Source of the DNA: Acidobacteriota bacterium
Lineage (GTDB): Bacteria; Acidobacteriota; Terriglobia; Terriglobales; Acidobacteriaceae
Assembly (NCBI GenBank): GCA_003225175.1
Contig: QIBA01000040.1
Coordinates: 62,001 to 126,000, forward strand
Length of the DNA: 64,000 nucleotides
Direction of reading: 5' to 3'
The notes beneath the pieces were generated by a model. That model saw only the letters and a program-made list of their open reading frames with translations, did not search any database and was not told the origin of the DNA. The stretch's first letter is position 1; each line of letters opens with the position of its first letter. Made by a program: the position numbers and the translations under genes. Of the stretch, positions 9,201-38,369 are shown one piece after another.

Positions 9201-9417
9201 CGACTTTAAGGCTGAGTATCCTATGAAGATAGGCGAGAGGAGCACTCTCCACTTCGCAGTCGACTTGTTCAACATCGCTGATGCTCGCAGAATCAACCTG
9301 GTCGATCAGAACCGGGATTTGTCGAGCCAACCGGCAAACTCGAACGTCGACTTCCAGGCTCCGCTTCAATTCCAAGCGCCGTTCTCCGCGCGCGTGATGG
9401 CCAAGTGGGAGTTCTAG
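6205..9417 (+). CDS. Oar-like TonB-dependent outer-membrane transporter 1
   Basis: A 1070-residue outer-membrane receptor. It has a Sec signal peptide (about residues 1-25, ending ALSAFAQ), an N-terminal carboxypeptidase-regulatory-like beta-sandwich (about 30-115: GVVADKTGAVVVGAKVTMTG, then FLFSTLDPGAYNLKIEKTGF), a TonB-plug-like region (about 120-245, GLENTYVADGVNIT) and a long beta-barrel ending in Phe (RVMAKWEF), as barrel-assembly substrates do. This is the Oar/CirA-like architecture that is strongly expanded in Acidobacteriota; substrates are unknown and usually guessed to be polysaccharide or peptide fragments. The start ATG is supported by GAAGGAGAGAG upstream. A perfect intrinsic terminator follows 30 bp after the stop, and then a secreted TPR gene. 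It is paralogous to the genes at 11031 and 16048. Confidence 0.9.
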   Translation: MNKRFSRIATTLAVALTLALSAFAQETSTKGNLAGVVADKTGAVVVGAKVTMTGPTGTRATDTDKDGRFLFSTLDPGAYNLKIEKTGFSAAQLRSLGVVVGKTATVSITLEPGAVTETVEVSASAVAVDTTSTAISTNLTDEFYSKVPIGRGVANLFYTAPGVASGGATGNSNPSISGSSGLENTYVADGVNITDSAFGGLGTFTRAQGSIGTGINLSFIKEVQVKTSGFEPQYGQSDGGIIQIVTKTGGNAYHGAIAGYASPQDLKANPLLRDDFRVNKIGKQPGDSNYDASGELGGYIPHFKDHLFFFASGDPSWRINPRQTVPTAPLAATLPLINQRTTTYNYDAKLTWHINDSHQLEGSIFADPSHTNVGAFNLASLNASNNTGFSRLNYGTRNVVGRYNGTLSPTWLVNGSFAYNTNNFTETPGFDVYQVVDRTTSVTRTLQGFGLLENHDAHTYKVSGDTSKIVNALGQHTFSVGYMWENPNYTDVKARSGGRYVVPATNLQGGSWLPTTNSPAGKMSDAQFNLLKSPTDSNGNFTCTLCPLYPVNGVMTPVYLNQVRGEFGAGGKLPTFSKYQAGYVNDSWEMNKHVNMSLGVRWEQQLFSGNVDTQHYTFTDNWAPRFGIAVDPKGDRKSKIFFNFGRYNYELPLDAAIRQLSEELDLLGADFIPVINGTKVTPVLDQAHLINNATGGIAAGGKVSVAGLGEAIAPGTKMSYTDEYVIGAEHEFHGFVLSARYVDRRLQRVIEDVGSVSPEGNLILSQNSAIANPSPTLDLFVNEVQKVIAPGTPVANFPTGCRTDNTTNVGKNSAGVPVALGNTADANNNVFTPNSICFLDGGGDVGADGKPDGFIKPSRVYRAMEFEVNKAFSHNYMLRVNYRVGHLYGNYEGAFRNDNGQTDPGISSLFDFTAGQYNLLGDQFKNGDLNTDRRHVVNAFLSYTLPESFAKGLTLGTAVRVQTGTPISQFGDHPAYQNSGEVPIGGRGLLGRTLPQGTVDFKAEYPMKIGERSTLHFAVDLFNIADARRINLVDQNRDLSSQPANSNVDFQAPLQFQAPFSARVMAKWEF

Positions 9418-14000: not shown

Positions 14001-14231
14001 CTCGATCTTGGCTTCTACCTGCCTTGGAAGATCGGGGAAAATCGTGAACTCCGCTTCACCGCGGACTGGTTTAACGTCACCAACACGCAGCGTGCGGTCA
14101 CGCTTGATCAGACCTTCTCGCTGAATAGCGGTGTTACTGGCGTTGCCGCCGTACCCAATGCCTTCTATGGCTCGGCTCTGCTTGTCCAGCCGCCTTCGCA
14201 GTGGAGGTTTGGAGCGAAGTTCAGCTTCTAG
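11031..14231 (+). CDS. Oar-like TonB-dependent outer-membrane transporter 2
   Basis: A 1066-residue paralogue of the gene at 6205. It has a signal peptide (about 1-26, ending AIGAWAQ), a carboxypeptidase-regulatory domain (about 30-115: GISGVVKDPAGAVVPSARLT), a plug-like region with GPENNYILDGVSTADPAFGG (about 185-205) and FVQEVEIKTGAYGAEYGKST, then a beta-barrel ending GAKFSF with the C-terminal Phe. The start is fixed by CTGGAGGTTTTAATG. A terminator follows 26 bp after the stop and then a second secreted TPR gene, repeating the arrangement of transporter 1. The substrate is unknown. A possible sigma-54 promoter lies upstream. Confidence 0.9.
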   Translation: MKQLKGRSRFLLTLSLMLTLAIGAWAQSATTGGISGVVKDPAGAVVPSARLTVTGENLIRPQTTTTEPDGTYKIFNLPPGMYTLVVDAGSGFAKYERKNIVVNLGRSNVAEVQLQMASATEQVEVTAANTGAIDVDTTTAGSNVGADQFLNFPTTRSVQGLYNIAPAVTRSGLRDASGRDRDPSVAGSSGPENNYILDGVSTADPAFGGGGANLPFEFVQEVEIKTGAYGAEYGKSTGGIFNVITKSGSNRISGDVFGFFTGSGMVRGVKNFPFTGSAANGFSEQDVGGDIGGPIVKDKLWFFGAFNPQRRKNFYLTQTFHTPVENQVTTPFYAGKVTWGISDRHTLNVSTFGDFTTVDGFLANAALANVSGFGSDPTAFKGKDQSGGHNYTVRLNSAFTPRFIAEIAMGLHYQRRNILPSAASAKAPLISDNFAALVGATVAPVTHTGFLSTANSGKTGFIDYVDGRGGSLQRNFLQGPGFGLFQNSDRNRYETSAHLQNIFSRHSIKYGFEWSRNIYNNLNTSSGVPITYANPQGLSQASPDSNQTINQRTTNNLSVCTTRTTTIVCPSSTAAALLQSLPANRLPAGITSVSQGSITANEAFGNPFLVRLSTRVRDFELHANTYTQVYSGYLQDDFKVLRNLQLNLGLRWDLQQGYDTDGKSYIKLNQFWRDMQPRLGAIWDFTGTGKGKLSVSYARFLETPIPLDVNVRAGGGNSQTDKNFNVDTYGAPAGANIVPGIRSSNTVGAVNLGADATPIDPDIRPQTLEEYTAGIEFAPANRFVLGIRGIYRNYINIIEDGSFDDGDTYFLFNPGRRGNGETTEDKACADPTIGCFGPARRYYRGIEFTATKRFSNNYQFITSYTYSSLVGNYEGLFRNDNGQSDPNITSLFDLVSLLPNTYGRLPNDRPHQFKFNGSYQTPFKVMVSGNFYIQSGSPFNQLIPHPVYGNNEGFAVQRGTSIVPQVTASQAGFPNIVDSIGTQRTPITHDLDLGFYLPWKIGENRELRFTADWFNVTNTQRAVTLDQTFSLNSGVTGVAAVPNAFYGSALLVQPPSQWRFGAKFSF

Positions 14232-15927: not shown

Positions 15928-16047
15928 TCTACAGCATAAGAATTGAATTGCATTGACCAAAGCTTGCAGCAAGCGCACCCCACCTTTTCAACAGACGTCA
16001 CCCAAAAGTTTGGCAGCGAGCTACCGGTCCAGGAGGAAGAGAGGCAC

Positions 16048-19000
16048 ATGGGAATCAACAAGTCTTTAAAGCTACTGGTTGCATTCGGGTTCCTTTTTGC
16101 GATGGCCAGCATGATGTTCGGCCAAGCTGTCACTGCGAGTTCATCTCTTGCAGGGACAGTCACAGACAGGAGCGGAGCTGTAGTCGTCGGCGCGACTGTT
16201 ATGGCAGTAGACGCCGCCACCGGCAGTTCCCGTACTGCAACAACCAACAACTTGGGCGCATACCGCTTTGACGTGTTGCCTCCGGGGATCTACTCGGTAA
16301 AAACAACGATGACCGGATTCTCAACGTCGACAGCTCCTAGCGTCGAGTTGCTCGTCGGGCGTACCACTACTCAGGATTTCTCACTTAGACCGGGCGCAGC
16401 CTCCGAAACCGTCGAAGTCACCGCTGCAGCTCCGATTCTCGATCAGGAAAAGACTTCGGTTGGCATGCAGATCACGCCTGAGGACGTGCAGGACCTGCCC
16501 CTTAACGGCCGTGATTTCGCCAATCTCGCGTATCTGGCGCCGGGAGCAAAGGCAACGCCTCCCTGGGATCCCACCAAAGTTCGGACTTCTGGAGTAGGCA
16601 TCAACGGCTCGAACGGTCGCAACATGAACATCACCGTCAATGGCATCGACAACAAAGACAACACCGTCGGTGGCCCGGTGATGCAGCTTCCACTCGAGGC
16701 GGTACAGGAAGCAGTAATTTCCACTCAGCGTTTTTCGGCCGCTAATGGTCGCTCTGAAGGCGCTGCGATGAACGTGATCACCCGTTCGGGCAGCAATGCC
16801 TTCCATGGGTCTGGGTACTTTTTCGACACGCAGACGGCCCTCAATGCAAATGACAAGCTGAATACCGAGGATCCGGTCACTCACATAAAGACCGGTAACC
16901 CGACACCTCAGTTTGAACGACAGCAATTCGGTGGACGCTTTGGCGGACCAATCAGGAGAGACAAGGATTTTGGCTTTGTCGCCTGGGAACGCCTACGCGA
17001 GCACACAGCCATCCCAGTAAAGTCAACCGCGTTTGCGGAACTGAGCAGACTCAAGGGATTGAATCTCGGCAACGTCACGTTTAATCCTGACCCAGCCCTG
17101 ACCATTCCCACCCCCTACTTCGATACTCGCTACAACGCCCGTATCGACCACAACTTCTCCGACGCTCATCGCTTCTTCGTCAGTTACGCCGCACAGAACA
17201 ACGAAGACCAGAACGACCAATCAGGCAATGCCAACGATCTAACCGAAGGCAATTTCCAGAACAACCATCTCATCGTTACGAACGCCACGCTGAGTTCCGT
17301 CTTCAGTCCGAGGCTGGTGAATTCTTTTACCGCCGGGTTCCAGTACTGGAACAATCTGATTGACAGCAAGACCCGCGCGCCACTCGTGACGTTTCCGCAA
17401 AGCATCTCGTTTGGCACAAACACGAACGTTCCGCAGCAGTCCTACCAGCGCAAATATCAGTTCCGCGACGATCTCTCATACAACATCGGCAGGCATGGCC
17501 TGAAGGGGGGTGTCGATTACCTCTGGGAGCCATCGCTTGGCGGATACTTTGAGTTCAACTCCACGCTGGAGTATGACTTCCAGGATTTGCCCAGCGACAT
17601 TCTCGGCAACAAGGGCGGACTCTACCCACAGGGTTTCCAAACACCGGGTGCCATAACGGGCATGTCTATATCGAATGGCGATCCAAAAGAAGATCTGCCC
17701 GGCGGCGGAAAGATGCTTGGCCTCTATTTCCAGGATACGTGGAAAACGACCAGCAGGCTGACGCTTGATCTAGGTCTGCGTTATGACCGTGACTTCAACC
17801 TGATGGCGACGAATGCTCAAGCCGGCAGCCGCACGTACCAGTTGCTGAAGGCGCTCAATAGCCCCTTTGCCGGCATTCCTCAGGACTACAAGAAAGGCTT
17901 CAGCCCGCGCGTGGGCTTCGCTTATGATTTGACCGGAAATGGAAACAATGTTCTTCGTGGAGGCTATGGGCTCTACGACGCTCAGACATTCCTCAACATC
18001 CCGCTGTTTATGATCCAGCAGGCGAATCCTACGCTGTTCGCGACTGTGTTCTCGATCAGTGGCAGCGGTCCAGGAACAACCTGCACGTCCTGCACAGTGC
18101 CCGGTACCAACATCCCGCTGTCTCAATATCGATTAGGTATCGATCCCGTGCCGACGATTCCTGCGCCGATTACGCAGCTTACGGCTGGGGCAGTGGGCCG
18201 CCTCATGGCACCTGACTATCGCAACCCCTATTCGCAGCAGTGGAATATCGGGTTTGCTCATTCTTTCAATGCCAACACAGTGATGGAAATTGAGTACATC
18301 CACGAGCTCGGGTTGCATGAGGAGAAGCGTCAGATTCTCAACTATATCGATCCCGCTACGGGAACTCGGACGCTCGCCTCAGCCATCACTGCTTACAACA
18401 CTGCCCATCCAAGTGCCCCTCTCGCACAAATCGCTCGCATCTCGATGGAGTCCTCGGTGGGACGTTCGCGCTATGACGGTATGAACGTGTCCTTGCGCAG
18501 ACGCATGGCAAATCACTTCACAGTAAACGCTGCCTATACCCTCTCGGAAGGCAGGGCCTACGATGGCAATGCTGCCAGCTATTCCAACACGGTTACCGAT
18601 CCTCGCTTCCCATTGAATCCAGCAGATTTCGGTCCAGTGCCAAACGACGAACGGCACCATGGGTCGGTCTCCGGCGTGGTGGACCTGCCGTGGGGGTTCG
18701 AGGTTGCGCCTATCATGCAGGTAGCGTCTGCGCGTCCGTATGATGCGACGACCGGCTTTACTAACGTGCTCGGCTTTGGCTCGGGACCGCTCGCCGCACA
18801 TGCGCTGGTCCCTGCGAATGACCATAACAATCTGCTGTTTGGCACCACGCAAACCAGCAGCGCATTAAAGACTTGTTACCTGAATGGCTCATGCGTGGAG
18901 ACTCACTTTGACCGTCTGCGTGGTTCGCCATTCTTCAATCTGGATACTCGCCTTACCAAAAACATCAAGATCAAAGAAAAATCTAACTTGAAGCTGATCT

Positions 19001-19194
19001 TCCAGGCGTTCGATCTCACGAACCGCGCCAACTATGGCAACAACTACGATGGCAACGTTCGCCATTTCAACACGGATCCGACGAAGAGTTCCTTTGCAAC
19101 TCCGCTTGGTTATATCGGCTGCAACGCCAACGGGTGCAACCGAGCTATTCCCATCTCGTTCCGTGCCGAATTCGGAGCGCAGTTCACCTTCTAA
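16048..19194 (+). CDS. Oar-like TonB-dependent outer-membrane transporter 3
   Basis: A 1048-residue outer-membrane transporter. ATG 16048 follows AGGAGGAAGAGAGG and starts directly at the signal peptide (about 1-28, MASMMFGQ). Domains: carboxypeptidase-regulatory-like (about 30-118: LAGTVTDRSGAVVVGATVM), plug with QDLPLNGRDFANLAYLAPG (about 150-170), the plug segment NITVNGIDNKDNTVGG, then a barrel ending FGAQFTF. It is closer to the classic Oar-like pattern (LPLNGR motif) than the two upstream paralogues and lacks a TPR partner. A perfect palindromic terminator follows. The substrate is unknown. Confidence 0.9.
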   Translation: MGINKSLKLLVAFGFLFAMASMMFGQAVTASSSLAGTVTDRSGAVVVGATVMAVDAATGSSRTATTNNLGAYRFDVLPPGIYSVKTTMTGFSTSTAPSVELLVGRTTTQDFSLRPGAASETVEVTAAAPILDQEKTSVGMQITPEDVQDLPLNGRDFANLAYLAPGAKATPPWDPTKVRTSGVGINGSNGRNMNITVNGIDNKDNTVGGPVMQLPLEAVQEAVISTQRFSAANGRSEGAAMNVITRSGSNAFHGSGYFFDTQTALNANDKLNTEDPVTHIKTGNPTPQFERQQFGGRFGGPIRRDKDFGFVAWERLREHTAIPVKSTAFAELSRLKGLNLGNVTFNPDPALTIPTPYFDTRYNARIDHNFSDAHRFFVSYAAQNNEDQNDQSGNANDLTEGNFQNNHLIVTNATLSSVFSPRLVNSFTAGFQYWNNLIDSKTRAPLVTFPQSISFGTNTNVPQQSYQRKYQFRDDLSYNIGRHGLKGGVDYLWEPSLGGYFEFNSTLEYDFQDLPSDILGNKGGLYPQGFQTPGAITGMSISNGDPKEDLPGGGKMLGLYFQDTWKTTSRLTLDLGLRYDRDFNLMATNAQAGSRTYQLLKALNSPFAGIPQDYKKGFSPRVGFAYDLTGNGNNVLRGGYGLYDAQTFLNIPLFMIQQANPTLFATVFSISGSGPGTTCTSCTVPGTNIPLSQYRLGIDPVPTIPAPITQLTAGAVGRLMAPDYRNPYSQQWNIGFAHSFNANTVMEIEYIHELGLHEEKRQILNYIDPATGTRTLASAITAYNTAHPSAPLAQIARISMESSVGRSRYDGMNVSLRRRMANHFTVNAAYTLSEGRAYDGNAASYSNTVTDPRFPLNPADFGPVPNDERHHGSVSGVVDLPWGFEVAPIMQVASARPYDATTGFTNVLGFGSGPLAAHALVPANDHNNLLFGTTQTSSALKTCYLNGSCVETHFDRLRGSPFFNLDTRLTKNIKIKEKSNLKLIFQAFDLTNRANYGNNYDGNVRHFNTDPTKSSFATPLGYIGCNANGCNRAIPISFRAEFGAQFTF

Positions 19195-23132: not shown

Positions 23133-26100
23133 GTGCTACTGACGAACCGTCGGCGCTTTGCCGCCGCCGCAATTGCCGCCGTCGCATTTTCTGTATTCAT
23201 GCCTTGCTCCTTAACCGCTGCCATTAGCTACGTGCAGGGCAATTACTCGTGTCCGCAGTCGGCACAGACGACCGTGGCAGTGACGTACACAAAGGCACAA
23301 GTTGCGGGCGACTTGAATGTAGTGGTCATTGGCTGGAATGACGCCACGGCGACGATCGCTTCTGTAACCGACACAGCGGGCAATCAGTACCTGCGCGCAG
23401 GGAACCCGACCATCCGAACTGGTAACCCCGCTATCTCTCAATCGATTTACTACGCTAAGAACATCGCCAGCGCGGCGGCATCTGCGAATGCGGTAACCGT
23501 TGCCTTTTCGGTGGCGGCAGCTTTCCCGGACATAAGGATCCTGGAGTATGCGGGCCTTGATCTGGCTAATCCGTTGGATGTTTTTGTCGGGTCAACTGGT
23601 AACTCGAGCACCACAAGTAGCGGTGCGGTTACTACCACCAATGCGAATGATCTGTTAGTTGCAGGGAATACTATCGAGACGTTTACTACGGGCGCCGGAA
23701 CCGGCTTTACCAGCCGATTGATCACAAATCCGGACTCCGACATCGCGGAAGATCGAACCACAACGACTGCCGGCAGCTACAGCGCCACAGCCTCGCTCGG
23801 CGGCACCGGCGCCTGGGTCATGCAGATGGCTGCCTTCCGCGCTGCGGGAGCAGTCGTCGATACAACACCTCCAACCGCCCCGACCAATCTCGGCGCCACA
23901 GCCGCCAGCACCACGCAAATCAATTTGAGCTGGACGGCATCAACGGACAATGTCGCCGTTTCGAATTATCTGGTCGAGCAATGCCCGGGAGCGGGATGCA
24001 CAAACTTTTCCCAGATCGGTACTTCCACGACGACCACCTTCAATAACTCAGGCCTGGCAAGCGGGACAACGTACAGTTACCGGGTACGCGCCACGGATGC
24101 TGCAGGCAATTTCAGCAACTATTCAAACGTCGCCAGTGCCACGACGCTGAGTCCGCCTCCGGTGCCGACGAATCTGAGCGCGGCCGCCAATAGTGCAACC
24201 TCCATCAGCGTCAGCTGGAGCGCATCCGCAGGCGCTACCGGTTACACGCTGCAGCGATGCCAGGGCGCAGGCTGCAGCAACTTCGCCCAGGTCGCCACGC
24301 CCACAGTTACGAACTACACGGATACGAATCTCGCAAGTGGAACCAGCTACAGCTACCGTGTTCAGGCGAGCAATGCGAATGGCGCGAGCGCATTTTCAAC
24401 CGCGGTTAGCGCGACTACACAGACGCCTCCGAGTGCGCCAGGCAATCTGACGCCTTCGGTACCCAGTACGACGGAGATCGATCTTTCTTGGACAGCATCG
24501 ACGAGCTCGGTGGGACTGGCAAATTACATCGTGCAGCGTTGCCAGGGCGCTGGCTGCACGAACTATGCGCAGATCGCCTCTTTCGCCGCCAACATTACGA
24601 CCTATAACGACACCGGACTTACCGCGAGCACCACGTACAGCTACCGCGTCCAGGCCAGCGACACATTCGGCAACCTGAGCGCGTTTTCCAATGTCGCAAG
24701 CGCGACAACCCAAGGTCCGCCATCCACACCTACGAATTTGGGGGCAACTGTCATAAGCGCCACCCAGATTAACCTGAGCTGGAATGCATCAAGCAGCAGC
24801 GCGGGCCTGGCGAACTACATCGTGCAGCGATGCCAGGGAGCGGGCTGCACAAACTTCTCCCAGATTGGAACCCCGACAGGCACTTCCTTGAGTGACACCG
24901 GCCTCGCGCAGGGCACGACCTACGTTTACCGGGTCCAAGCCAAGGACGTGAATGGGAATCTGAGCGGATTTTCCAACTCAGCGAGCGCTACCACGCAGAC
25001 TCCGCCGAGCGCGCCAAGCAATGTGAATGCAAACGCGACCAGCGCGACGCAGATCACAGTCACGTGGACCGCCTCATCGAGCACAGTTGGCCTTGCGAAC
25101 TACATCGTGCAACGCTGCCAGGGATCCGGCTGCACGAACTTTGCGCAGGTTGGCACGCCGACCGCAACCACGTTCAACGATAGCGGCCTAACAAGTACCA
25201 CCACATACAACTATCAAGTGCAGGCCATCGATACGGCAGGCAATCTGAGCGCGTTCTCAGCGGTAGCGGCTGCGACAACTCAGACTCCGCAACCTCCCTC
25301 GGCCCCGGGTAATCTCAGCGCAACGGCAGTCGGAGGCAGTCAAATCAATCTCAGCTGGACAGCCTCGACCAGCAACGTGGGCCTGGCCAATTATGTTGTG
25401 CAGCGGTGCCAAGGTACGGGTTGCACGAACTTCGCCCAAATCGCTTCCCCAACTGGAACGAGCTACAGCGACACAGGCCTTTCCGCCGGAACCAGCTATA
25501 GCTATCAAGTCCAGGCAATCGACAATGCGGCTGTTGCTGGGCCGTTTTCGAACGTTGCCACAGCCACGACGCTGTCGTCGGTCGGGCTGCTGGTAGCGTA
25601 TCCAATGAATGAAGGCTCGGGGCCGACAACCGTCGACGTATCCGGCGCCGGCATTACAGGAGTCCTCCAGGCCACTACCTGGACTTCAGCTGGAAAGTAC
25701 GGCAATGCGCTGTCATTCAATGGTTCCTCGTCCTATGTGGACTTGGGCGCACCTTCGATCCTTAGAACCACGGCCAGCATGACTTGGGAAGCCTGGGTCT
25801 TTGCAGTTGCCAATCCATCGGACGATGGACAGATCATCGCTTACTCCAACACCACCGGGTGGCAGTTGAAGACGAGTCCGGATACTGGTCCGCGGACGTT
25901 TGGCGTTGCCGTTTCGAGCACAGCTGGACGTGTCCAGCGATATAGCAAAACTGTGCTCACGCTGAATACGTGGTACCACGTGGCCGGCGTGTACAACGCC
26001 GCCGCCCAGACGCTGGACATCTACGTCAACGGAGTACTCGATGACGGCGTATTGCGCGGAACCGTGCCTGCAGCTCAGGTACTCCCGACCGGAATAAACG

Positions 26101-29100
26101 TCAACATCGGCCGCCGCACTGGAGGCTTTTACTTCAACGGAACAATTGACGAGGTGAGAGTCTACAGCCGAGCCTTGTCAGCAGCCGAAATCCAGGCGGA
26201 CATGAACACGCCGTTAGTGGTACCTACTACACAAGGACCACCTTCGCCACCGGGAAATGTTTCGGCGACAACCATCAACAGCAGTCAAATTAACCTGAAT
26301 TGGACAGCGTCAACCAGCACGGTCGGAATCGCGAACTACATCGTGCAACGGTGTCAAGGAGCCGGTTGCACGAACTTCGTGCAAGTGGCTACGCCGACCG
26401 GGACGAGCTATAGTGACCTGGGTCTAGCGTCGAACACTACATATGTTTATCAAGTGTTGGCGAAGGATACTGCCGGAACCCTCAGCACGCCTTCGAATCC
26501 CGCAACTGCAACAACCTCCGGAGGCGCATCCCAACCAATCGTATTTGTCCAGGGGAATTACGCTGATCCTCAGTCTTCGCAAACGACTCTGTCAGTGCCT
26601 TACACCAGCGCACAGAGCAGCGGCAACCTGAACATCGTGATTGTTGGCTGGAATAACTCGACCTCCAACATAGCCTCTGTAACCGACACCAAAGGAAACA
26701 ACTACACGGTAGCTGCAGCGCCGATCTCGATCTCCGGCATTGCCACGCAGACTATCTACTACGCAAAGAATATTGCTTCCGCGGCCGCAGGCGGCAATGC
26801 GGTCACGGTGACCTTCACGAATTCAGCGTCGTTTCCGGATATTCGCATTCTGGAATACTCGGGTCTCGATACGCTTAATCCGCTGGATACAGCCGGTGGG
26901 CTTACTGGAAATAGCGCAACAAGTTCGAGTGGCAGCATTACCACAGTCAACCCGAACGACCTTCTCGTGGCCGGCAACACAGTTCAGACCCTGACCACAG
27001 GGCCGGGGCCGGGCTATAGCACGCGTGTGCTCTCAAGCCCAGATGCGGACATCGCAGAAGATCAGATTGTGAGCGCGGCGACTACCTATTCAGCCACTGC
27101 GCCGGTAAGCCCTGCGGGAGCCTGGATCATGCAGCTCGTAGCATTCCGGGCAGCACCGGTGGTTGCTGATTCAACGCCGCCAACCGCCCCCACTAACCTG
27201 CTCGCGAATGCGATAAGCGGAAGTCAGGTAGATCTCACCTGGACAGCTTCAACGGACAACATTGGAGTGGCCGGCTACCTCATAGAACGGTGTCAAGGTG
27301 CGAGTTGCTCGAATTTTGCGCAGATTGCCACCTCCACTGCTACTGGCTTTAGTGATACCGGCTTGGTGGCGGGGGTGACCTACAGCTATCGCGTTCGAGC
27401 TACTGATTCCGCGGGAAATCTGAGTCCGTACTCAGGCACCGCCACAGTGACGACGCTTGGATTTACGGTAACTCCAAAAACGGCGACATTAACCCCAATT
27501 CTGACTCAGCAATTTACGGCTACCACTTCAGGAATCACCTGGTCAGTCGATGGCGTGGTTGGCGGTAATGCAACCTCCGGCACGATTTCGACAAATGGGC
27601 TATATACACCTCCTTCGGCTTCGGGCACACATACGATTACCGGCACCAGCTCGAGTCCCGTTCAGTCGGTGAATGCCACGGCATACGTTTCCAACTACCC
27701 CGGAACTTATACCCGTGACTTCGATAAGCTGCGAACTGGACTGAATCCCAGCGAAACTGTGCTTACACCCACGAACGTGAATGCGGTTCAATTTGGGAAA
27801 CTATTCAGTAATGCCATAGATGGAACTGCTGATGCGTCCCCGCTCTATGTTCCCTCCGTGAACATCTCCGGCGTTCTCCACAATGTTGTGTATGTCGCTA
27901 CAGAACACGATAGTGTCTACGCCTTCGATGCCGATGGACGCCAGACAGCTCCGCTTTGGCAGAGAAGCTTTATCAATCCTTCAAGCGGGATTACGAGTGT
28001 TCCACCTGGTGATACGGGCGAGTGCTGCGATATCTCTCCGGAGATTGGGATCACAGGCACACCCGTCATCGATCCTTCCACAAACACCTTGTACGTCGTT
28101 GTTAAGACGAAGGAGGTCCAAGGTGGATCAACCAACTACTTCCATCGTCTGCACGCTCTCGATTTGAGCACAGGCGCCGAAAAACTAGGCGGACCCGTGA
28201 GCATTCAGGCGAGTGCGCCTGGAAGCGGTGCTGGCTCTTCGGGCGGTCAGATTGCTTTTCAGCCGTTGCGCGAAAACCAACGCGCAGCGCTACTGCTGAA
28301 TAATGGCGTTGTTTATATAGCCTTCGGTGGTCACGGCGATGTAAGCCCGTACCACGGCTGGATCCTTGGTTACAACGCGACGACTTTGCAACAAGTGATG
28401 AAGTTCCTCGCGAGTCCCAATGACAATGGGGTTCGTGTGACTGGAGGCGGTCAAGGCGCCGGAGTGTGGCAGAGCGGTGACGGTTTGGCGACTGATTCAA
28501 CCGGCAACATTTTCTTCGTCACCGGAAACGGCATCTTTGATGTGAACACTGGAGGTCCGGACTATGGAGATAGCTTCGTCAAACTCAGTACCTCCGGCCA
28601 GGTGCTTGATTACTTCACGCCACATGACCAGCAGAACATGAATGATTTGGATATCGATCTTGGATCAGGCGGCGTAATTCTCCTTCCCGATCAGCCAGGC
28701 GCTCACCCGCACATGGCGATCACAGCTGGTAAGAACGGAACAATTTATCTTGTCGATCGCGACAACATGGGTCATTACAACTCTAATAACGACAATCAGA
28801 TTGTTCAGACCGTTGTTAACATCTTTCCCAACGGCACGAAGAGTACTGGAAACTTCAAAGCGGCGGTGCACTGGAATAGCAGGCTTTTCTTCAGCGCCGA
28901 CGCAGATAACATCAAGTGCTTTACTTTGAACAATGGATTAATGTCGACTGCCCCAGTATCGACATCCTCACTTTTCCTGAATTATCCCGGCGCCACGCTC
29001 GGACTATCCGCGAATGGCCTTACGAACGCAATACTCTGGGCAATTCAGCGGGTGGATCTGAATCCTGACGGAGGAGGAGTGAGAGGCCCAGGCTCGTTGC

Positions 29101-29270
29101 ATGCCTTTGACGCCACTGATCTGACCAAGGAGTTGTACAACAGCAATCAGGCCAGCGGCGCGCGGGATACGTTGGATTTCACAGCGAAATGGTCGGCTCC
29201 GCTCGTGGCGAACGGCAGAGTCTATGTCGCCACCACGGGACAGTTTGCTGCATTTGGTCTGTTGCCGTAA
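23133..29270 (+). CDS. Giant secreted fibronectin-III / LamG / beta-propeller protein
   Basis: A 2045-residue exported protein; GTG 23133 has AAGGGG six bases upstream. Order: signal peptide (about 1-30); a beta-rich domain A (about 31-240, VQGNYSCPQSAQTTVAV); six fibronectin-III units (about 245-815); a concanavalin/LamG-like domain (about 818-1029: AYPMNEGSG, WYHVAGVYN, TIDEVRVYSRALSAAEI); a seventh unit; a second copy of domain A (about 1135-1343); an eighth unit; an Ig-like segment (about 1445-1526); and a C-terminal PQQ/quinoprotein-like beta-propeller (about 1527-2045: VYVATEHDSVYAFDADG). All eight fibronectin units carry a CxxxxC loop (RCQGAGC type). It has the look of a surface adhesin or matrix protein. 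No sortase, exosortase or anchor signal is seen at its C-terminus (ends AAFGLLP). A strong sigma-54-type promoter lies upstream. Confidence 0.88.
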   Translation: MLLTNRRRFAAAAIAAVAFSVFMPCSLTAAISYVQGNYSCPQSAQTTVAVTYTKAQVAGDLNVVVIGWNDATATIASVTDTAGNQYLRAGNPTIRTGNPAISQSIYYAKNIASAAASANAVTVAFSVAAAFPDIRILEYAGLDLANPLDVFVGSTGNSSTTSSGAVTTTNANDLLVAGNTIETFTTGAGTGFTSRLITNPDSDIAEDRTTTTAGSYSATASLGGTGAWVMQMAAFRAAGAVVDTTPPTAPTNLGATAASTTQINLSWTASTDNVAVSNYLVEQCPGAGCTNFSQIGTSTTTTFNNSGLASGTTYSYRVRATDAAGNFSNYSNVASATTLSPPPVPTNLSAAANSATSISVSWSASAGATGYTLQRCQGAGCSNFAQVATPTVTNYTDTNLASGTSYSYRVQASNANGASAFSTAVSATTQTPPSAPGNLTPSVPSTTEIDLSWTASTSSVGLANYIVQRCQGAGCTNYAQIASFAANITTYNDTGLTASTTYSYRVQASDTFGNLSAFSNVASATTQGPPSTPTNLGATVISATQINLSWNASSSSAGLANYIVQRCQGAGCTNFSQIGTPTGTSLSDTGLAQGTTYVYRVQAKDVNGNLSGFSNSASATTQTPPSAPSNVNANATSATQITVTWTASSSTVGLANYIVQRCQGSGCTNFAQVGTPTATTFNDSGLTSTTTYNYQVQAIDTAGNLSAFSAVAAATTQTPQPPSAPGNLSATAVGGSQINLSWTASTSNVGLANYVVQRCQGTGCTNFAQIASPTGTSYSDTGLSAGTSYSYQVQAIDNAAVAGPFSNVATATTLSSVGLLVAYPMNEGSGPTTVDVSGAGITGVLQATTWTSAGKYGNALSFNGSSSYVDLGAPSILRTTASMTWEAWVFAVANPSDDGQIIAYSNTTGWQLKTSPDTGPRTFGVAVSSTAGRVQRYSKTVLTLNTWYHVAGVYNAAAQTLDIYVNGVLDDGVLRGTVPAAQVLPTGINVNIGRRTGGFYFNGTIDEVRVYSRALSAAEIQADMNTPLVVPTTQGPPSPPGNVSATTINSSQINLNWTASTSTVGIANYIVQRCQGAGCTNFVQVATPTGTSYSDLGLASNTTYVYQVLAKDTAGTLSTPSNPATATTSGGASQPIVFVQGNYADPQSSQTTLSVPYTSAQSSGNLNIVIVGWNNSTSNIASVTDTKGNNYTVAAAPISISGIATQTIYYAKNIASAAAGGNAVTVTFTNSASFPDIRILEYSGLDTLNPLDTAGGLTGNSATSSSGSITTVNPNDLLVAGNTVQTLTTGPGPGYSTRVLSSPDADIAEDQIVSAATTYSATAPVSPAGAWIMQLVAFRAAPVVADSTPPTAPTNLLANAISGSQVDLTWTASTDNIGVAGYLIERCQGASCSNFAQIATSTATGFSDTGLVAGVTYSYRVRATDSAGNLSPYSGTATVTTLGFTVTPKTATLTPILTQQFTATTSGITWSVDGVVGGNATSGTISTNGLYTPPSASGTHTITGTSSSPVQSVNATAYVSNYPGTYTRDFDKLRTGLNPSETVLTPTNVNAVQFGKLFSNAIDGTADASPLYVPSVNISGVLHNVVYVATEHDSVYAFDADGRQTAPLWQRSFINPSSGITSVPPGDTGECCDISPEIGITGTPVIDPSTNTLYVVVKTKEVQGGSTNYFHRLHALDLSTGAEKLGGPVSIQASAPGSGAGSSGGQIAFQPLRENQRAALLLNNGVVYIAFGGHGDVSPYHGWILGYNATTLQQVMKFLASPNDNGVRVTGGGQGAGVWQSGDGLATDSTGNIFFVTGNGIFDVNTGGPDYGDSFVKLSTSGQVLDYFTPHDQQNMNDLDIDLGSGGVILLPDQPGAHPHMAITAGKNGTIYLVDRDNMGHYNSNNDNQIVQTVVNIFPNGTKSTGNFKAAVHWNSRLFFSADADNIKCFTLNNGLMSTAPVSTSSLFLNYPGATLGLSANGLTNAILWAIQRVDLNPDGGGVRGPGSLHAFDATDLTKELYNSNQASGARDTLDFTAKWSAPLVANGRVYVATTGQFAAFGLLP
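23870..27460 (+). repeat. Eight-fold fibronectin-III coding repeat
   Basis: About 285-bp units encoding near-identical cores (YIVQRCQGAGCTNFAQI type) at roughly 23870, 24157, 24424, 24720, 25003, 25290, 26235 and 27175. The first six are contiguous; units seven and eight are separated from them by the LamG-like domain and by the second copy of domain A respectively. The similarity is high enough that recombination between units could change copy number. Confidence 0.85.
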
Positions 29271-29515: not shown

Positions 29516-29645
29516 TTCCGAGGCGTGAGGGTGATCGCAAGGGGACGTCGCTGCGCAAAGTGGCTGCGCGGCTGTGTGTCCGGGGGCTGAGAGCCCCTCG
29601 GCCACCTCCAGCCGGATCGCGCGTTTTCGAGATTTCCTGTCAGGC

Positions 29646-30689
29646 ATGATGGACACTTCACAACCTCTGGTCAGCGTTGTCACCCCTGTGTACAACGGGG
29701 CGAAGTACCTCGTCGAGTGCATTGAAAGCGTGCTGTCCCAGACCTATCAAAACTGGGAATACATCATCGTCAACAACTGCAGCACGGATGCGACGCTGGA
29801 GATTGCCGAGAAATACGCTGCTTCGGAGCGAAGAATTCGGGTTGTCACCAATTCCAGCTTCGTCAACGTCATTGAGAATCACAACATCGGATTCCGGCTG
29901 ATCTCGAAAGAAAGCGAGTACTGCAAGATTGTCTGTGCCGACGACTGGATCTATCCCGAATGTCTAAGCCGCATGGTCGAGGTGGGAGAGAAACATCCAT
30001 CGGCGGCTGTGATTGGAGCCTACGTTGTTAGTAGCCGCGGTGTAACGCTCGCCGGGCTTCCTGTGGGCAAGTCGATATTCAGCGGTTACGACGTTTGCCG
30101 CTCCCATCTCTTTGGAGGCCCCGAGGTCATGGGAGCGCCTTCGGCTGTGCTGTATCGCAGCGAGGTGATCCGGAAACGCGAAGACTTCTTTCCCGGAACG
30201 GCTCCGTCTGCCGATGCCGCTGTGTATTACGAGATCTTGCGCGACTGGGATTTCGGCTTTGTGCATCAGATTCTCTCGTTCGAGCGCGTTCACGACCAAG
30301 CTCTGAGCGGTGGACAACGGCAATTACACGCATTCCTGCTGGATAAAATCGCTTTTCTCAAGCGGTATGCCGGCGCCTATGGGACGCCCGAAGAGCAGAG
30401 CGAGCGATTCCGTCAACTGATGAACGAGTACTACGGCACGCTGGCCACGGCGCTGGTACATCGCTATCCCAGGAGTTACTGGGACTATCACCAGAAGCGT
30501 CTCAGCGAAGTTGGGTTGTCGATTGAAGGCAGCCGCCTTGCCAGGGCTCTTGTGACCAAAGCCTTGAATTTGATTCTGAATCCGAAGCGGGCTTACGCAA
30601 GGTTTTTTCATGCGTCGGAGAAGCGCTGGCGACCCTCTTTCTCTCTCCCCAGGATCGCAAGTGAGGAACAGCCGAACCAGGCGCCTTGA
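29646..30689 (+). CDS. Family-2 glycosyltransferase
   Basis: A 347-residue GT-A fold inverting glycosyltransferase. The N-terminal nucleotide-sugar site reads VSVVTPVYNGAKYLVECIES, with NNCSTDAT (the usual Asp-containing N-D/N-S-T-D turn) and a DxD-like acidic pair in VCADDWIYPE, around residue 95. No membrane segment is visible, so it likely acts at the cytoplasmic face on a lipid-linked sugar. In-frame sequence upstream of 29646 (to 29574) is unlike the family; the ATG at 29646 or 29649 fits the first beta strand. It is the first gene of the EPS region, followed at 60 bp by the Cys-motif protein. The sugar donor cannot be predicted. Confidence 0.87.
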   Translation: MMDTSQPLVSVVTPVYNGAKYLVECIESVLSQTYQNWEYIIVNNCSTDATLEIAEKYAASERRIRVVTNSSFVNVIENHNIGFRLISKESEYCKIVCADDWIYPECLSRMVEVGEKHPSAAVIGAYVVSSRGVTLAGLPVGKSIFSGYDVCRSHLFGGPEVMGAPSAVLYRSEVIRKREDFFPGTAPSADAAVYYEILRDWDFGFVHQILSFERVHDQALSGGQRQLHAFLLDKIAFLKRYAGAYGTPEEQSERFRQLMNEYYGTLATALVHRYPRSYWDYHQKRLSEVGLSIEGSRLARALVTKALNLILNPKRAYARFFHASEKRWRPSFSLPRIASEEQPNQAP

Positions 30690-30748
30690 TCTTGTTTTCA
30701 GCTGATGGTTGTGTTGATGAAGGTTAGAAATTCTTTCATGGAGAGTAT

Positions 30749-31882
30749 GTGAAGAGTAAGGAGAAGTTGAGCGCGGGTGATTGGGTGCAGGTCCGTGGTA
30801 GAGGGGAGATCCTGCGAACTCTGGATTCTCGAGGCTGTCTGGACGAAATGCCGTTCATGCCCGAGATGTTTGCATTCTGCGGCAAGAAATTCAGGGTCTA
30901 CAAGCGCGCACACAAGACTTGTGACACTGTATTTCCGATCCGCGGACGACGCGTGGCAGATACCGTTCATCTGGAAACCCGTTGCAACGGAGCCGCGCAC
31001 GGCGGGTGCCAGGCTGGATGTCTTCTCTTTTGGAAGACAGCATGGCTGATTCCGCTCAACGACGATGGAAGCCCGAAGGACCCTGAGGCAAGGAATGACA
31101 ACGTTGCCAGCGCCTCGAAAAGGTCATCAGGCTGCACCGAATCCGATGTCTGGAATAACGCTCGGCCTCACAATGGAACATCGGGTCCGAAGTATATGTG
31201 CCAGGCAACGCAATTGCCGTATTACACGAGCGATCTGAAGTGGTGGGAATTGTGGCAGTACCTGGAAGACTACACCTCTGGCAATATCGGCCTCTGGCGC
31301 ATCGTTTGCGGTCTGGCTTACTCCGCGTACTACAACCTCATCCAAGCGGGTATCGGTTTAGGAGCTCCACTGCGTGAGTTATACGACCTCTTTCATCCTT
31401 TTCGTGGAGGCAAGAAGTTTCCTCGCAGGACAGGGTCAATTCCCAAAGGACAGGCTACGCCTGCAGCGGTTTTGGATCTTCAGCCCGGGGAACTTGTTCG
31501 CGTCAAGTCGCATGATGAGATCCTGCGCACTTTAAATACGGATTGCTCGAATCGCGGAATGCGTTGGGATGCAGAGATGGTTCCGTACTGCGGTAAGACC
31601 TTTCGCGTGTTGGACCGCGTCACCAAGATCGTGAACGAGCAGACCGGATTTATGCAGGAGATGAAAACTCCCTGCATCATCCTGGACAACGTCATTTGTC
31701 AGTCACGCTACAGTCAGTGCAGCATGTTTTGTCCGCGAAGCATTTATTCCTATTGGCGGGAAATCTGGCTGGAACGAGTTGAGCAGAAGAAGCCCCGTCG
31801 AGAGCCGCAGGAGGCGGCTCCGGAATTGTGCAGCTCGCAGAGGGATGCGTCACAGCTTGTCGAGATCGGGCCCGCTCAATGA
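30749..31882 (+). CDS. Uncharacterised internally duplicated Cys-motif protein
   Basis: 377 residues, GTG start, no signal peptide or membrane segment; I do not assign a function. Two homologous halves flank a unique middle. The first half (about 7-103) has GDWVQVRGRGEILRTLD, FCGKKFRV (C44), then C79, C87 and C91 in CNGAAHGGCQAGC followed by FWKTAWL. The second half (about 246-344) has GELVRVKSHDEILRTLN, YCGKTFRV (C281), then C317, C324 and C328 in CQSRYSQCSMFC followed by YWREIWLERV. The paired Cys plus CX6-7CX3C pattern suggests a metal or Fe-S site in each half. The middle (about 130-220) contains a CQATQLP segment and aromatic-rich helices. It sits between two glycosyltransferases, implying a role in EPS or sugar modification. 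I have a general impression of similar unannotated proteins in other glycan clusters, which I could not check. Confidence 0.75.
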   Translation: MKSKEKLSAGDWVQVRGRGEILRTLDSRGCLDEMPFMPEMFAFCGKKFRVYKRAHKTCDTVFPIRGRRVADTVHLETRCNGAAHGGCQAGCLLFWKTAWLIPLNDDGSPKDPEARNDNVASASKRSSGCTESDVWNNARPHNGTSGPKYMCQATQLPYYTSDLKWWELWQYLEDYTSGNIGLWRIVCGLAYSAYYNLIQAGIGLGAPLRELYDLFHPFRGGKKFPRRTGSIPKGQATPAAVLDLQPGELVRVKSHDEILRTLNTDCSNRGMRWDAEMVPYCGKTFRVLDRVTKIVNEQTGFMQEMKTPCIILDNVICQSRYSQCSMFCPRSIYSYWREIWLERVEQKKPRREPQEAAPELCSSQRDASQLVEIGPAQ

Positions 31883-31978: not shown

Positions 31979-33199
31979 ATGAGCAGATCGCCGCGCATTC
32001 TCTATGTAACGTCACGCTGGCCCGATGCTGCGGGTACAGGTGCGCATCTTCGCTCCCTGAATCTGCTCCGCGGCCTCGAACAGATGGGATCTGTTGAAGT
32101 GTTGGTTCTGAATGCGGAAAACAGGGACGAAGATCTTGCATTGGGACGCGGGCGCTGGTTGCGGCATTCAGCGGCCATTCGCGTGAATGCCCAACCCAAC
32201 TCCGGGTTTGTGGACCAGCTCGCATGGACGATCGACCCAAAACGGTCTTATCCGAACGGCTGGTCCATATCGGAGCAAGACGCACAGTATGTGAGAAATA
32301 AGGCCAGAGACTTTGATTTGGTTTGGTTCTACAAGCTCGTCTCCCCAGACCTGTTTCCAGATGGGAGTTGGCCGTCCTCTGTTGTGGACATCGATGACTT
32401 ACCCAGCAGTTATGAGCGCCGCACTCTGAAAATGGCTGGCGGTCTGGGAGAACGCATACTTACGGCAAGGCGCTTGTTTACCTGGCGTAGGCGAGAAAGA
32501 CTGCTTGGCGATCGCTTTTCAGTGCTGAGTGTTTGCAGCGAAGAAGATAAGCGGTATTTGAAGGATCTAGGTCTCGCCCGACCGATTCATGTCATACCCA
32601 ATGGTTTCGACGAGCCGCTCGGTGACTGGACGCGGGCCCTGGCCAATCCGCCTCGGATCGGATTTGTGGGGAGACTTGATCATGAACCCAATCGGGATGG
32701 CATCCAATGGTTCATAGATCATTGCTGGTCTCGGATAAAGTCCGTGATTCCTAATCTGAAACTGCGACTCGTCGGCCCTGGCACCGAGCTTCTTCAGGAC
32801 TCGCAGCTGGACATCGAGAGTCTCGGCTGGCTTCCAAGCGTGACCGAAGAGATGAAGACCTGGTCGGTGATGGTGGTCCCAATACGGCTGGGCGCGGGAA
32901 CCTGCGTGAAGGTAGCGCATGGCTTCAGTCAAAGGTGCCCAATCGTATCGACATCTCTCGGTGCTCGCGGATACGATTGCCTGCACGAACGGGAGATGTA
33001 TATCGCGGACTCTCCAGAGATGTTTGCCAGTGCTTGCGTCGAACTCGTGCGGGACTTAGATAAAGCTCAGCCGCTCGCAGAAAGAGCATGGGACTACTTC
33101 GTGGAGAAGTGGAGTTGGAAGTCAATCTATCCGAAGGTCTGGGCAGCGGCCGAAGATTGCCTCAGCCAGAGCGAGGCAACAGCTTCGTATTCAGTGTGA
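31979..33199 (+). CDS. Family-4/1 glycosyltransferase (exosortase-locus type)
   Basis: A 406-residue GT-B fold transferase. The N-terminal domain opens RILYVTSRWPDAAGTGAHLR, and the C-terminal donor domain has IGFVGRLDHEPNRDG, the loop LRLVGPG and PIRLGAGTCVKVAHGFSQ near residue 310, with the usual C-terminal VVPIRLGAGT...K pattern. The arrangement matches sugar transferases annotated as PEP-CTERM/EpsH1-associated (TIGR03087 type), which agrees with the adjacent exosortase; the subfamily call is from memory of the pattern. It converges on the exosortase gene with only 30 bp between stops, where TTGGC-GT-GCCAA forms a weak hairpin. Confidence 0.85.
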   Translation: MSRSPRILYVTSRWPDAAGTGAHLRSLNLLRGLEQMGSVEVLVLNAENRDEDLALGRGRWLRHSAAIRVNAQPNSGFVDQLAWTIDPKRSYPNGWSISEQDAQYVRNKARDFDLVWFYKLVSPDLFPDGSWPSSVVDIDDLPSSYERRTLKMAGGLGERILTARRLFTWRRRERLLGDRFSVLSVCSEEDKRYLKDLGLARPIHVIPNGFDEPLGDWTRALANPPRIGFVGRLDHEPNRDGIQWFIDHCWSRIKSVIPNLKLRLVGPGTELLQDSQLDIESLGWLPSVTEEMKTWSVMVVPIRLGAGTCVKVAHGFSQRCPIVSTSLGARGYDCLHEREMYIADSPEMFASACVELVRDLDKAQPLAERAWDYFVEKWSWKSIYPKVWAAAEDCLSQSEATASYSV

Positions 33200-33229: not shown

Positions 33230-34138
33230 TTACGACTCAGAAGCATGCGAAAGCTCGCGGAAGCCGGATGGTTCTTTCGCAGAAACCGATTCTTCTCGAT
33301 TTTCGGATCGCCGCAACAGTCTCCACAACGGGTAGAGAGCGGCCAGGCCAAGCAGATAAAAAACGATTCCGCCCTTGTGATGAAAGCTGCCGGTCAGGAA
33401 TCTCATATCAACATGCACCGCAAGTAGCGTTAGCGTCACAATGCGGAGGGCATTCTTAGCAATAGAGACGGGTATCGCCAGCAGAACCAGAATGAAACGG
33501 CGAGAAGACGTGTGCAGCGTCTCGTAACCAATCAGCAGCAGAGTAAAGACCAGGGCCATGCTGGAATTGATGCCGCTACACTCCTTGGCCACCTCGATCG
33601 TCACTCCGGGAATGTGCAGCAAAAAACCATCACGAAAAACCGGCACCCCGAGCAGCGAGAACAAGAAATCAGCTGTGGCCGTGGAACTGGTTTGAAGAGC
33701 AGCGATGATGCCGCCGGCCACAGATGCCGGTAATGGAACGCTCAGCCAAAGCAGAAACAACGGAAATAAGGCACGCCCCATCGCGCCCCTGCCAAACGCC
33801 AATAGAAATATGCCGAGCACAGACAAGAGCAAGGCCGCGTACCTGAGTTCAAGCGCAACGAATGAATTGGCTTTAGGCAGGGAACCGAAGAACGTGACTG
33901 CTGAAAGGACGATACCGGCAGCTATCGCAATGGGTCCGAGAAGGACATCGCAGCCGAGATTCGAAAAAACATCCTGGCGTCTCGACCAAAGCAAGTAGAG
34001 AGCAAAGAGTGGAACCAGGATCGCATACGAACCATAGCCGTTTTGCAGCGAGAGTCTAAAGATCTCATGCAGCGGCTTCCACGCCGCCGCCACAGCCATG
34101 AGTGCCAGGAAAACGAAGATGCCCGTTCGTGCGCGCAA
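33230..34138 (-). CDS. Exosortase (membrane transpeptidase of protein-sorting/EPS systems)
   Basis: 302 residues with about eight predicted membrane helices. The three catalytic residues of the exosortase/archaeosortase family are present: Cys187 in KECSGINSS, Arg232 in IAKNALRIV, and His253/254 in FHHKGGIVFY. Exosortases cleave C-terminal PEP-CTERM-like signals and transfer the protein to a surface acceptor, usually in EPS-producing bacteria. There is no fused EpsI domain. The TTG start at 34138 lacks a good ribosome site; ATG at residue 14 is an alternative, but it would shorten the first helix. No target protein with a PEP-CTERM-like tail is encoded in the window. A sigma-54-like promoter lies about 84 nt ahead on this strand. 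Confidence 0.92.
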   Translation of the reverse strand: MRARTGIFVFLALMAVAAAWKPLHEIFRLSLQNGYGSYAILVPLFALYLLWSRRQDVFSNLGCDVLLGPIAIAAGIVLSAVTFFGSLPKANSFVALELRYAALLLSVLGIFLLAFGRGAMGRALFPLFLLWLSVPLPASVAGGIIAALQTSSTATADFLFSLLGVPVFRDGFLLHIPGVTIEVAKECSGINSSMALVFTLLLIGYETLHTSSRRFILVLLAIPVSIAKNALRIVTLTLLAVHVDMRFLTGSFHHKGGIVFYLLGLAALYPLWRLLRRSENREESVSAKEPSGFRELSHASES

Positions 34139-37064: not shown

Positions 37065-38369
37065 ATGTTGAAGTACTTGCTTGCCTGGACCTTCATGGGA
37101 AGTGTCGCGTTGTTGGCTCAGCAGCCGATGCATCCCGCTGAACTCGGAGTCGGTCCCCTCACGCGGGATGCAGTCGCCAACAACACTTTGGATTATGGGC
37201 TAAACGTTTCTTCCACGTTCGACGATAACGCAGTGATAGCAGAAGGGTCGAACAGTGGACGTCAGACAAATGCCACCGTCTCCGTTCAACCGCAAATGCG
37301 GATTCTGCTCGATCGCACGCGGTGGAGCTCTGATTTGTACTACGGCCCAAGCTTCACCTACAGCAACAACATACATACTTATAACAATCACTCTCAGGCG
37401 GTCGGTGTAGACCTGCAATATCATTTCACGAGACGCCTCTCCGCACATTTTCGAAACGCGTTCTCGTACACTTCGAATCCGTTGGACGCAGTTCAAACTA
37501 GCGCTCAACTTCCCGGTCTGGGACTCGTGAATGGTCCAAATGCCTCGGTTCTGGGAGCTGATGTACGCAGTACGACCGAGCAACTTCAAGGCGACGTGGT
37601 TTATCTACTCGGGCCCCACACACTACTTGGAGGAAGTGCAACGCTGGCCGATTTGAAATATCAGCCCACGACAGCCACATTACTCCAATCATTTTCACAG
37701 GCGTCGCGCAGCTGGTCAGGAAATGCCTTCTATTCCCATCAGCTAACTCGGATGTACACCGTCTCCGTTCAGTACACGGCGCAAGACACAACGTCTGAAA
37801 TTCCGATTGGACGCTTTGTTTCGCTATCGCACCAAGTCCTCGGTTTTTTCAGTGTATCGTTCAAGCCTGGTGTGAATCTCTCGATATTCGGTGGTCCGGT
37901 GCGCTCGAACATGAGCGACGATCTCGTTCTTCCAGGACCAATATCATCTCGGGTTTCGAAATATACCCTTGCGGCAGGATCGAGCCTGAGCTGGCAAGGG
38001 GAGCATAGCGGCATCAGACTGACTTTTGTGCAGCGTCTGACGGATGCGGGTCTGGGCGGTGGTGCAGTCGTTCGCACGCAGACGACGAGCTTAGAGGCTC
38101 AGCGCCGGCTTTCTCGACGATCTGCGATGAGTTTGATGGCTAACTACGTTTCTAACAACCAATTCGATCCGCTCAGCGAGGTGCGGTTGTCAGATTCAGC
38201 GATCGCAGGAATCACTCTGTCGCGCTCGCTCTCTCCTCGATTTAGCCTGAGCTGTTCAGCGATCAGACAGCAGTTCATGGGGAGCGCACCTTTAGGATTG
38301 CTGCAGCGAAGTCATGACATTGCTTCGGTTTCCTTGTCCTATTCAATGAGACGGCCTATAGGCCGATGA
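37065..38369 (+). CDS. EPS-locus outer-membrane beta-barrel protein
   Basis: 434 residues with a signal peptide (about 1-19, SVALLAQQ) and then alternating amphipathic strands with many aromatic girdles (LYYGPSFTYSNNIHTYNN, VSVQYTAQDTTSEIPIG). It is consistent with a 16-18-strand outer-membrane barrel of the type found in exosortase/PEP-CTERM EPS loci (about 450 residues). It lies between export and chain-length genes, 17 bp after the former and overlapping the latter by ATGA at 38366. It is probably the outer-membrane conduit or an assembly factor for the polymer; no close family name can be given with confidence. Confidence 0.75.
   Translation: MLKYLLAWTFMGSVALLAQQPMHPAELGVGPLTRDAVANNTLDYGLNVSSTFDDNAVIAEGSNSGRQTNATVSVQPQMRILLDRTRWSSDLYYGPSFTYSNNIHTYNNHSQAVGVDLQYHFTRRLSAHFRNAFSYTSNPLDAVQTSAQLPGLGLVNGPNASVLGADVRSTTEQLQGDVVYLLGPHTLLGGSATLADLKYQPTTATLLQSFSQASRSWSGNAFYSHQLTRMYTVSVQYTAQDTTSEIPIGRFVSLSHQVLGFFSVSFKPGVNLSIFGGPVRSNMSDDLVLPGPISSRVSKYTLAAGSSLSWQGEHSGIRLTFVQRLTDAGLGGGAVVRTQTTSLEAQRRLSRRSAMSLMANYVSNNQFDPLSEVRLSDSAIAGITLSRSLSPRFSLSCSAIRQQFMGSAPLGLLQRSHDIASVSLSYSMRRPIGR

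Follow-up and report, generated by a model that had tools for sequence, protein, structure and literature searches.

From our analysis of the 64,000-nucleotide stretch of DNA presented above (the window), the open reading frame at 30749-31882 on the forward strand (377 codons, starting with GTG at 30749) is a genuine gene and belongs to a genuine bacterial family for which there is no curated model. We tentatively read its product as a cytoplasmic, non-catalytic, probably zinc-stabilised tandem-SH3 adaptor of surface-polysaccharide assembly, a reading that we consider possible rather than probable. The family is a well-conserved unnamed addition to a recurring polysaccharide module, which comprises a cytidylyltransferase-like protein, a C-methyltransferase, a 3,5-epimerase, DUF4910, PIG-L and a flippase and is found in loci labelled Acidobacteria, Verrucomicrobiota, Planctomycetota, rhizobia and an actinomycete. 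If the reading is true, a non-enzymatic, metal-pinned adaptor would suggest how polysaccharide machinery is organised. The original prediction set the gene among glycosyltransferases next to an exosortase, and we found this arrangement, with a glycosyltransferase on either side and the exosortase next on the opposite strand:

30749-31882 (+): 377-aa protein of the unnamed family
30740-30745 (+): ribosome-binding-site-like GGAGAG just 5' of the GTG start, read from the sequence
29574-30689 (+): upstream family-2 glycosyltransferase (Glycos_transf_2, E 2.5e-29)
31979-33199 (+): downstream glycosyltransferase of the group 1/family 4 type (Glyco_trans_1_4, E 7.1e-18; TIGR03087 below its cut-off)
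33230-34138 (-): exosortase (PF09721, E 5.6e-43; TIGR02602 over its cut-off)

The gaps to the same-strand glycosyltransferases are 59 bases on the upstream side and 96 on the downstream side. A GDWV-type motif also lies near the N-termini of called relatives, some of which have a called start further 5'. Profile searches of Pfam and NCBIfam gave no match to the window protein, in agreement with the earlier statement that it fits no nameable family; a PDB sequence search returned nothing relevant (best E 0.93 and 0.88), and no paper was found whose title or abstract opening deals with the family. The N-terminus is charged by eye, and there is no long hydrophobic stretch (the best 19-residue Kyte-Doolittle mean, 1.09, falls in the middle segment); the protein would reside in the cytoplasm.

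The genome collection yielded 12 loci with 43-68% identity, under the labels Acidobacteria/Terriglobia, Verrucomicrobiota/Limisphaerales, Planctomycetota, Bradyrhizobium and a gammaproteobacterium. Six records matched in the plasmid collection (four Mesorhizobium, Bosea and Nonomuraea), and none of the phage records gave a match. The Nonomuraea record (L027, NZ_LT559118.1) is called a plasmid and, at 11.85 Mb, is probably a chromosome. The distribution of the family is patchy: counting the seed genome each time, it is present in 8 of 100 related genomes, and 14 of 297 genomes of the window's phylum; in the phyla to which the Bradyrhizobium and the planctomycete genomes belong, the counts are 3 of 397 and 3 of 244, respectively. 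Since four Verrucomicrobiota/Limisphaerales MAG loci are closer to the window protein (52-61% identity) than is G023, which belongs to the same taxonomic family as the window genome (43%), transfer is hinted at, subject to possible MAG binning errors. L081 (807 aa) and L083 (475 aa) are long at the N-terminus, which looks like an over-called ORF start in each rather than a fusion. Three members, L070, L092 and L093, are single-barrel proteins called at 171-207 aa, whose N-terminal segment may match the middle of the two-barrel proteins.

The motifs said to be shared by two half-repeats, and all eight cysteines listed with them, are present in the window protein, and the repeats reflect a true internal duplication: the halves align with a BLOSUM62 score of 93, against a mean of 24.9 (SD 4.2) and a maximum of 55 for 2000 shuffles. 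When the second half was used as query against the plasmid collection, two matching places were found in all six records; with the first half this was so in one of the six. The protein can be divided as follows:

30761-31060 (+): first predicted SH3-like barrel, residues 5-104 (AlphaFold2, 26 aligned halves, mean pLDDT 86.5, pTM 0.78)
31061-31471 (+): middle segment, a variable linker with a CQxT motif (Cys151) and predicted helices at 168-176, 182-199 and 205-219
31472-31789 (+): second predicted SH3-like barrel, residues 242-347 (strand/helix order as in the first half, full-length model)

Each half is predicted to form an SH3-like barrel. The model from 26 aligned halves has strands at 8-11, 43-52, 64-74, 88-92 and 96-99 (plus 4 in window numbering), which gives a five-strand meander barrel with a long RT-like insertion between strands 1 and 2; the Cys register of the underlying alignment (A3) is, in our view, wrong for the second halves. 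The full-length model (13-row alignment, mean pLDDT 71.0, pTM 0.67) has the same strand/helix order in both halves and helices in the middle. Cys151, which was missing from the earlier list of cysteines, is invariant in the 13-row alignment. Foldseek gave no match at E 0.001 or below for either model, which counts against the adaptor reading. Among the matches listed (50 for the domain), the neighbours, which we take to be mostly SH3-like, include Mind bomb repeats, ribosomal proteins such as L21e, nitrile hydratase beta, PsaE and NdhS; Mind bomb REP, L21e, PsaE and NdhS are for the most part non-catalytic binding modules. The second most frequent weak Pfam match among 39 members was zf-C2HC_2 (3 of 39, best E 0.0033), and NCBIfam gave seven scattered weak families. 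An adaptor is favoured over an enzyme or a redox switch because the fold is a predicted binding module, no catalytic signature was recognised and divergent members occur elsewhere; with SH3-like barrels predicted and no nameable catalytic signature, the enzyme part of the original prediction, a metalloenzyme, is not upheld. The middle segment was also scored as an amphipathic helix, unconvincingly, and it is the second barrel of the window protein, not the middle segment, that has the best helical moments, which again counts against the adaptor reading.

Cysteine conservation was counted in an alignment of 74 barrels from 39 members (35 two-barrel and 4 single), namely the window and one locus per other member; L002, L006, L008, L011 and L012 are represented by duplicate copies of their contigs (L084, L088, L085, L089 and L090), and of the four Mesorhizobium records one is in the set, the other three having been dropped as repeats. 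Strand positions of the first-barrel cysteines are those of the domain model:

30878-30880 (+): Cys44, candidate metal ligand immediately preceding strand 2; in 33 of 35 first barrels
30920-30922 (+): Cys58, at the end of strand 2 opposite Cys44; in 32 of 35 first barrels
30983-30985 (+): Cys79, candidate ligand ending strand 3; in 35 of 35 first barrels
31007-31009 (+): Cys87, candidate ligand in the strand 3-4 loop; in 35 of 35 first barrels
31019-31021 (+): Cys91, candidate ligand beginning strand 4; in 35 of 35 first barrels, with Cys at the equivalent position in 3 of 35 second barrels
31589-31591 (+): Cys281, counterpart of Cys44; in 27 of 35 second barrels
31697-31699 (+): Cys317, counterpart of Cys79; in 35 of 35 second barrels
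31718-31720 (+): Cys324, in a variable insertion; Cys in this column in 16 of 35 second barrels
31730-31732 (+): Cys328, counterpart of Cys87; in 35 of 35 second barrels

All five first-barrel cysteines, including the conserved C58 that the earlier list omits, are kept in 30 of the 35 first barrels; three lack only C58 and two only C44, and at least four of the five are present in every one. C44, C79, C87 and C91 are all found in three of the four single barrels, the remaining one being without C44. The claim of four conserved cysteines per half thus stands family-wide for the first half and falls for the second, in which the set C281/C317/C324/C328 is complete in only 12 of 35 barrels (the Cys324 column has His in L004 and Tyr in L011). 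Likewise, loss of the cysteines in homologues, which had been named as evidence against the claim, affects some second-half cysteines but spares the first half, and an equivalent pair of metal or Fe-S sites is no feature of the family. It is likely that the family has one conserved Cys site. As the second barrels are not poor in cysteine (30 of 35 have at least four in total), a shifted Cys site in them is possible. In the 74-barrel alignment C328 is aligned to C87, each eight residues before a conserved Trp, and the position of C91 is taken by Ile332, whereas a MAFFT alignment of 26 halves gave another Cys register with a 4-residue gap; we favour the ungapped register because of intermediates such as L073 (GGCSRDVYHYW). 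The spaced Cys triads noticed in both halves are therefore alike in spacing but probably not equivalent in position.

Because the meander is antiparallel, C44, C79, C87 and C91 would share one end of the sheet, opposite C58. Structure prediction had been suggested as a check on whether the cysteines cluster; in the first half the four are probably near one another, as judged by topology rather than measured distance, and in the full-length model C281, C317, C324 and C328 are placed likewise around the second-half strands. A metal, of which zinc is the likeliest, may pin one end of the first barrel through C44, C79, C87 and C91, and the second barrel would then be a copy with a partly eroded metal site. 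Alternatively, oxidation of the cysteines or loss of the metal could free a partner and so tune polysaccharide synthesis. The five conserved cysteines in 30 of 35 first barrels are consistent with such a switch, as are a hemerythrin/ScdA_N gene adjoining L077 and a homologous neighbour at L080, but a structural zinc explains the invariant cluster equally well and the hemerythrin context is confined to these two related loci; we regard the switch as quite unlikely. Neither the window protein nor the families listed for the 39 members included a match to an Fe-S family profile. The CDGSH iron-sulfur domain, whose motif we take to be CXC...CDG[STA]H with an invariant His, was rejected, as the motif here is C-x-G-x-x-H, 5 of 35 first barrels have Tyr or Phe instead of the His and the first barrel of the window protein has no CXC. 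The string CX7CX3C also occurs in two papers on ferredoxins.

For the gene neighbourhoods, we clustered the 438 proteins encoded up to eight genes away and named the representatives by Pfam, and the members were split into close (22) and divergent (17) by whether one match spans most of the profile. Six clusters represent NDP-sugar enzymes (epimerase, nucleotidyltransferase, 3,5-epimerase, PIG-L, C-methyltransferase and DUF4910), the nucleotidyltransferase being named from another member (NTP_transferase, E 4e-9) and TIGR02623, as its representative had no match at 1e-4. Controls were 20 regions at hand-picked positions, on one contig each from five member genomes. Of the close members, 15 of 22 have at least two of the six clusters nearby, as against 1 of 17 divergent members and none of the 20 controls, in a sample that includes near-identical Bradyrhizobium loci (several) and many loci truncated at a contig end. 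One or more of 17 scored clusters, picked because they recur and one of them unnamed, occurred near 21 of 22 close members, 8 of 17 divergent members and 8 of 20 controls; six of the eight control matches are ABC ATPases of the Wzt cluster alone, and with these excluded the counts are 21 of 22, 7 of 17 and 2 of 20. The proposed linkage to EPS or polysaccharide synthesis accordingly holds for close members against controls but not for divergent ones. Because divergent members mostly lack the cassette, we rejected a purely polysaccharide role for the family as a whole, and the role of the adaptor cannot be purely polysaccharide either. A Wzx-type flippase cluster is near 13 loci and is the directly next downstream gene in six.

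The cassette linkage of close members would also suit a metalloenzyme, or an enzyme subunit as in nitrile hydratase, that modifies a conserved NDP-sugar or lipid-linked sugar with the Cys site in a catalytic or structural part. In the rhizobial loci L009, L026, L085 and L086 conservation of the family protein is on a par with that of the cassette enzymes and above that of the flippase (at L009, 50.2% against 48.5% for RfbC, 59.1% for the C-methyltransferase and 30.9% for the flippase), which is high for a scaffold and counts against the adaptor reading. The weak fold similarity to nitrile hydratase beta and the strong conservation of PF[ML]PxM and W-x3-W in first barrels of the 74-barrel alignment point the same way. 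However, the conservation argument fails at L066 (45.1% against 49.7-69.7% for five cassette proteins) and L074 (44.0% against 54.8-59.8%), where, as at L090 (45.1%), the family protein is below most cassette proteins. The C-methyltransferase and DUF4910 are within eight genes of only 9 and 7 of the 22 close loci, some of which are cut by contig ends; divergent members are mostly without the cassette, and the window protein matches no catalytic family. We therefore consider an enzyme unlikely. DUF4910 is found in 18 of 100 related genomes at E 0.001 and in 5 of 100 below 1e-100, two of these five holding the family, so that co-occurrence across genomes gave little information. Elsewhere, GNAT/FemAB-like neighbours are found at L073, L082, L092 and L093, and a two-component system with a PepSY protein, a CNNM protein and an ammonium transporter at L076, L078 and L079, for which few neighbours were scanned. 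The divergent L077 adjoins an acyltransferase gene besides the hemerythrin/ScdA_N gene; L080 is likewise placed, by clustering only.

The window's own locus is of the XrtA/PEP-CTERM polysaccharide type (XrtA-specific models scored below their cut-offs), with genes for an export protein, a chain-length protein, an ATPase, a tyrosine kinase-like protein, a PrsT-like TPR protein and a sugar transferase. It has none of the six NDP-sugar clusters within eight genes of the ORF. An NDP-sugar cassette with a flippase lies on the same contig at 72509-81822 in window-extended coordinates, 8.5-18 kb beyond the window's right end and about 41-50 kb from the ORF; its presence on the contig speaks for the adaptor reading and its non-adjacent position against it. 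The cassette runs epimerase, RfbC, DUF4910, two other genes, C-methyltransferase, glucose-1-phosphate cytidylyltransferase-like gene (TIGR02623, E 4e-60, below cut-off), PIG-L and flippase. The polysaccharide locus is very long, from 34603 to 63671 in the window and on to about 83300 in extended coordinates. A KOW-like protein, linked to RNA or transcription and acting on this long operon, could be imagined from the UpxY/RfaH-like antiterminator at 35819 and the ribosomal-protein chains (L21e and presumably L24) among the Foldseek neighbours. Such matches are generic to SH3-like barrels, and no KOW match was found in the window protein or among 17 families from the 39 members, which makes this highly improbable. 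Between the export and chain-length genes, a 434-aa ORF at 37065-38369 (+) was matched by neither Pfam nor NCBIfam. At 6205-9417, 11031-14231 and 15943-19194 (+), near one another, are genes for three related proteins of about 1070 aa, which form one cluster and each end in Phe; a terminal Phe is common in outer-membrane proteins. A 2045-aa protein at 23133-29270 (+), with fibronectin III and laminin-G-like domains, clusters with proteins near the family members in L073 and L090.

On the favoured adaptor reading, the two SH3-like barrels would lie on either side of a helical middle segment, which might contact the inner membrane face, and the barrels would bind partner proteins or a glycan carrier, thereby holding together glycosyltransferases, NDP-sugar enzymes and the flippase. 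A more elaborate joint claim, that tandem SH3-like barrels and a Cys-ligated metal site define a new, sporadically distributed family, which forms a metal- or redox-gated assembly platform coupling CDP-linked branched sugar synthesis to transfer and flipping and which divergent members reuse outside polysaccharide loci, is rather improbable as a whole.

Mind bomb SH3 repeats (PF18346, SH3_15; PDB 4xi6 and 4tse), known from eukaryotic ubiquitin ligases, share the SH3-like barrel predicted here. The 4xi6 structure had the highest TMq among the 50 domain matches listed (0.54, Foldseek probability 0.99, E 0.11), and, with matches allowed up to E 10, SH3_15 was the most frequent of the weak Pfam families, found in 7 of 39 members (best E 0.017), all below threshold (best 15.6 bits against a curated cut-off of 24), so that the family falls outside PF18346. 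We know of no comparable Cys site in Mind bomb repeats. The nitrile hydratase beta subunit was the top Foldseek match of the full model (E 0.0052, probability 0.89), with a TMq of only 0.18; no nitrile hydratase profile matched the window protein or appeared among the families listed for the 39 members, and no alpha subunit was present among the scanned window neighbours. Ribosomal barrels of the L21e/L24 type share the SH3-like fold (8hku L21E, probability 0.99; 8why chain X, which we take to be L24, probability 0.99 with the full model), whereas no sequence relation to ribosomal proteins was found and the scanned genes have no ribosomal context. Closest in gene content are the DUF4910/NDP-sugar neighbourhoods of PMC4000134, the passages of which that we consulted concern DUF4910 itself and make no mention of the present family. 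These neighbourhoods likewise contain a nucleotidyltransferase, an epimerase, a methylase and an export protein, and Das and colleagues proposed in those passages that the product of DUF4910 operons is a modified surface sugar (PMC4000134).
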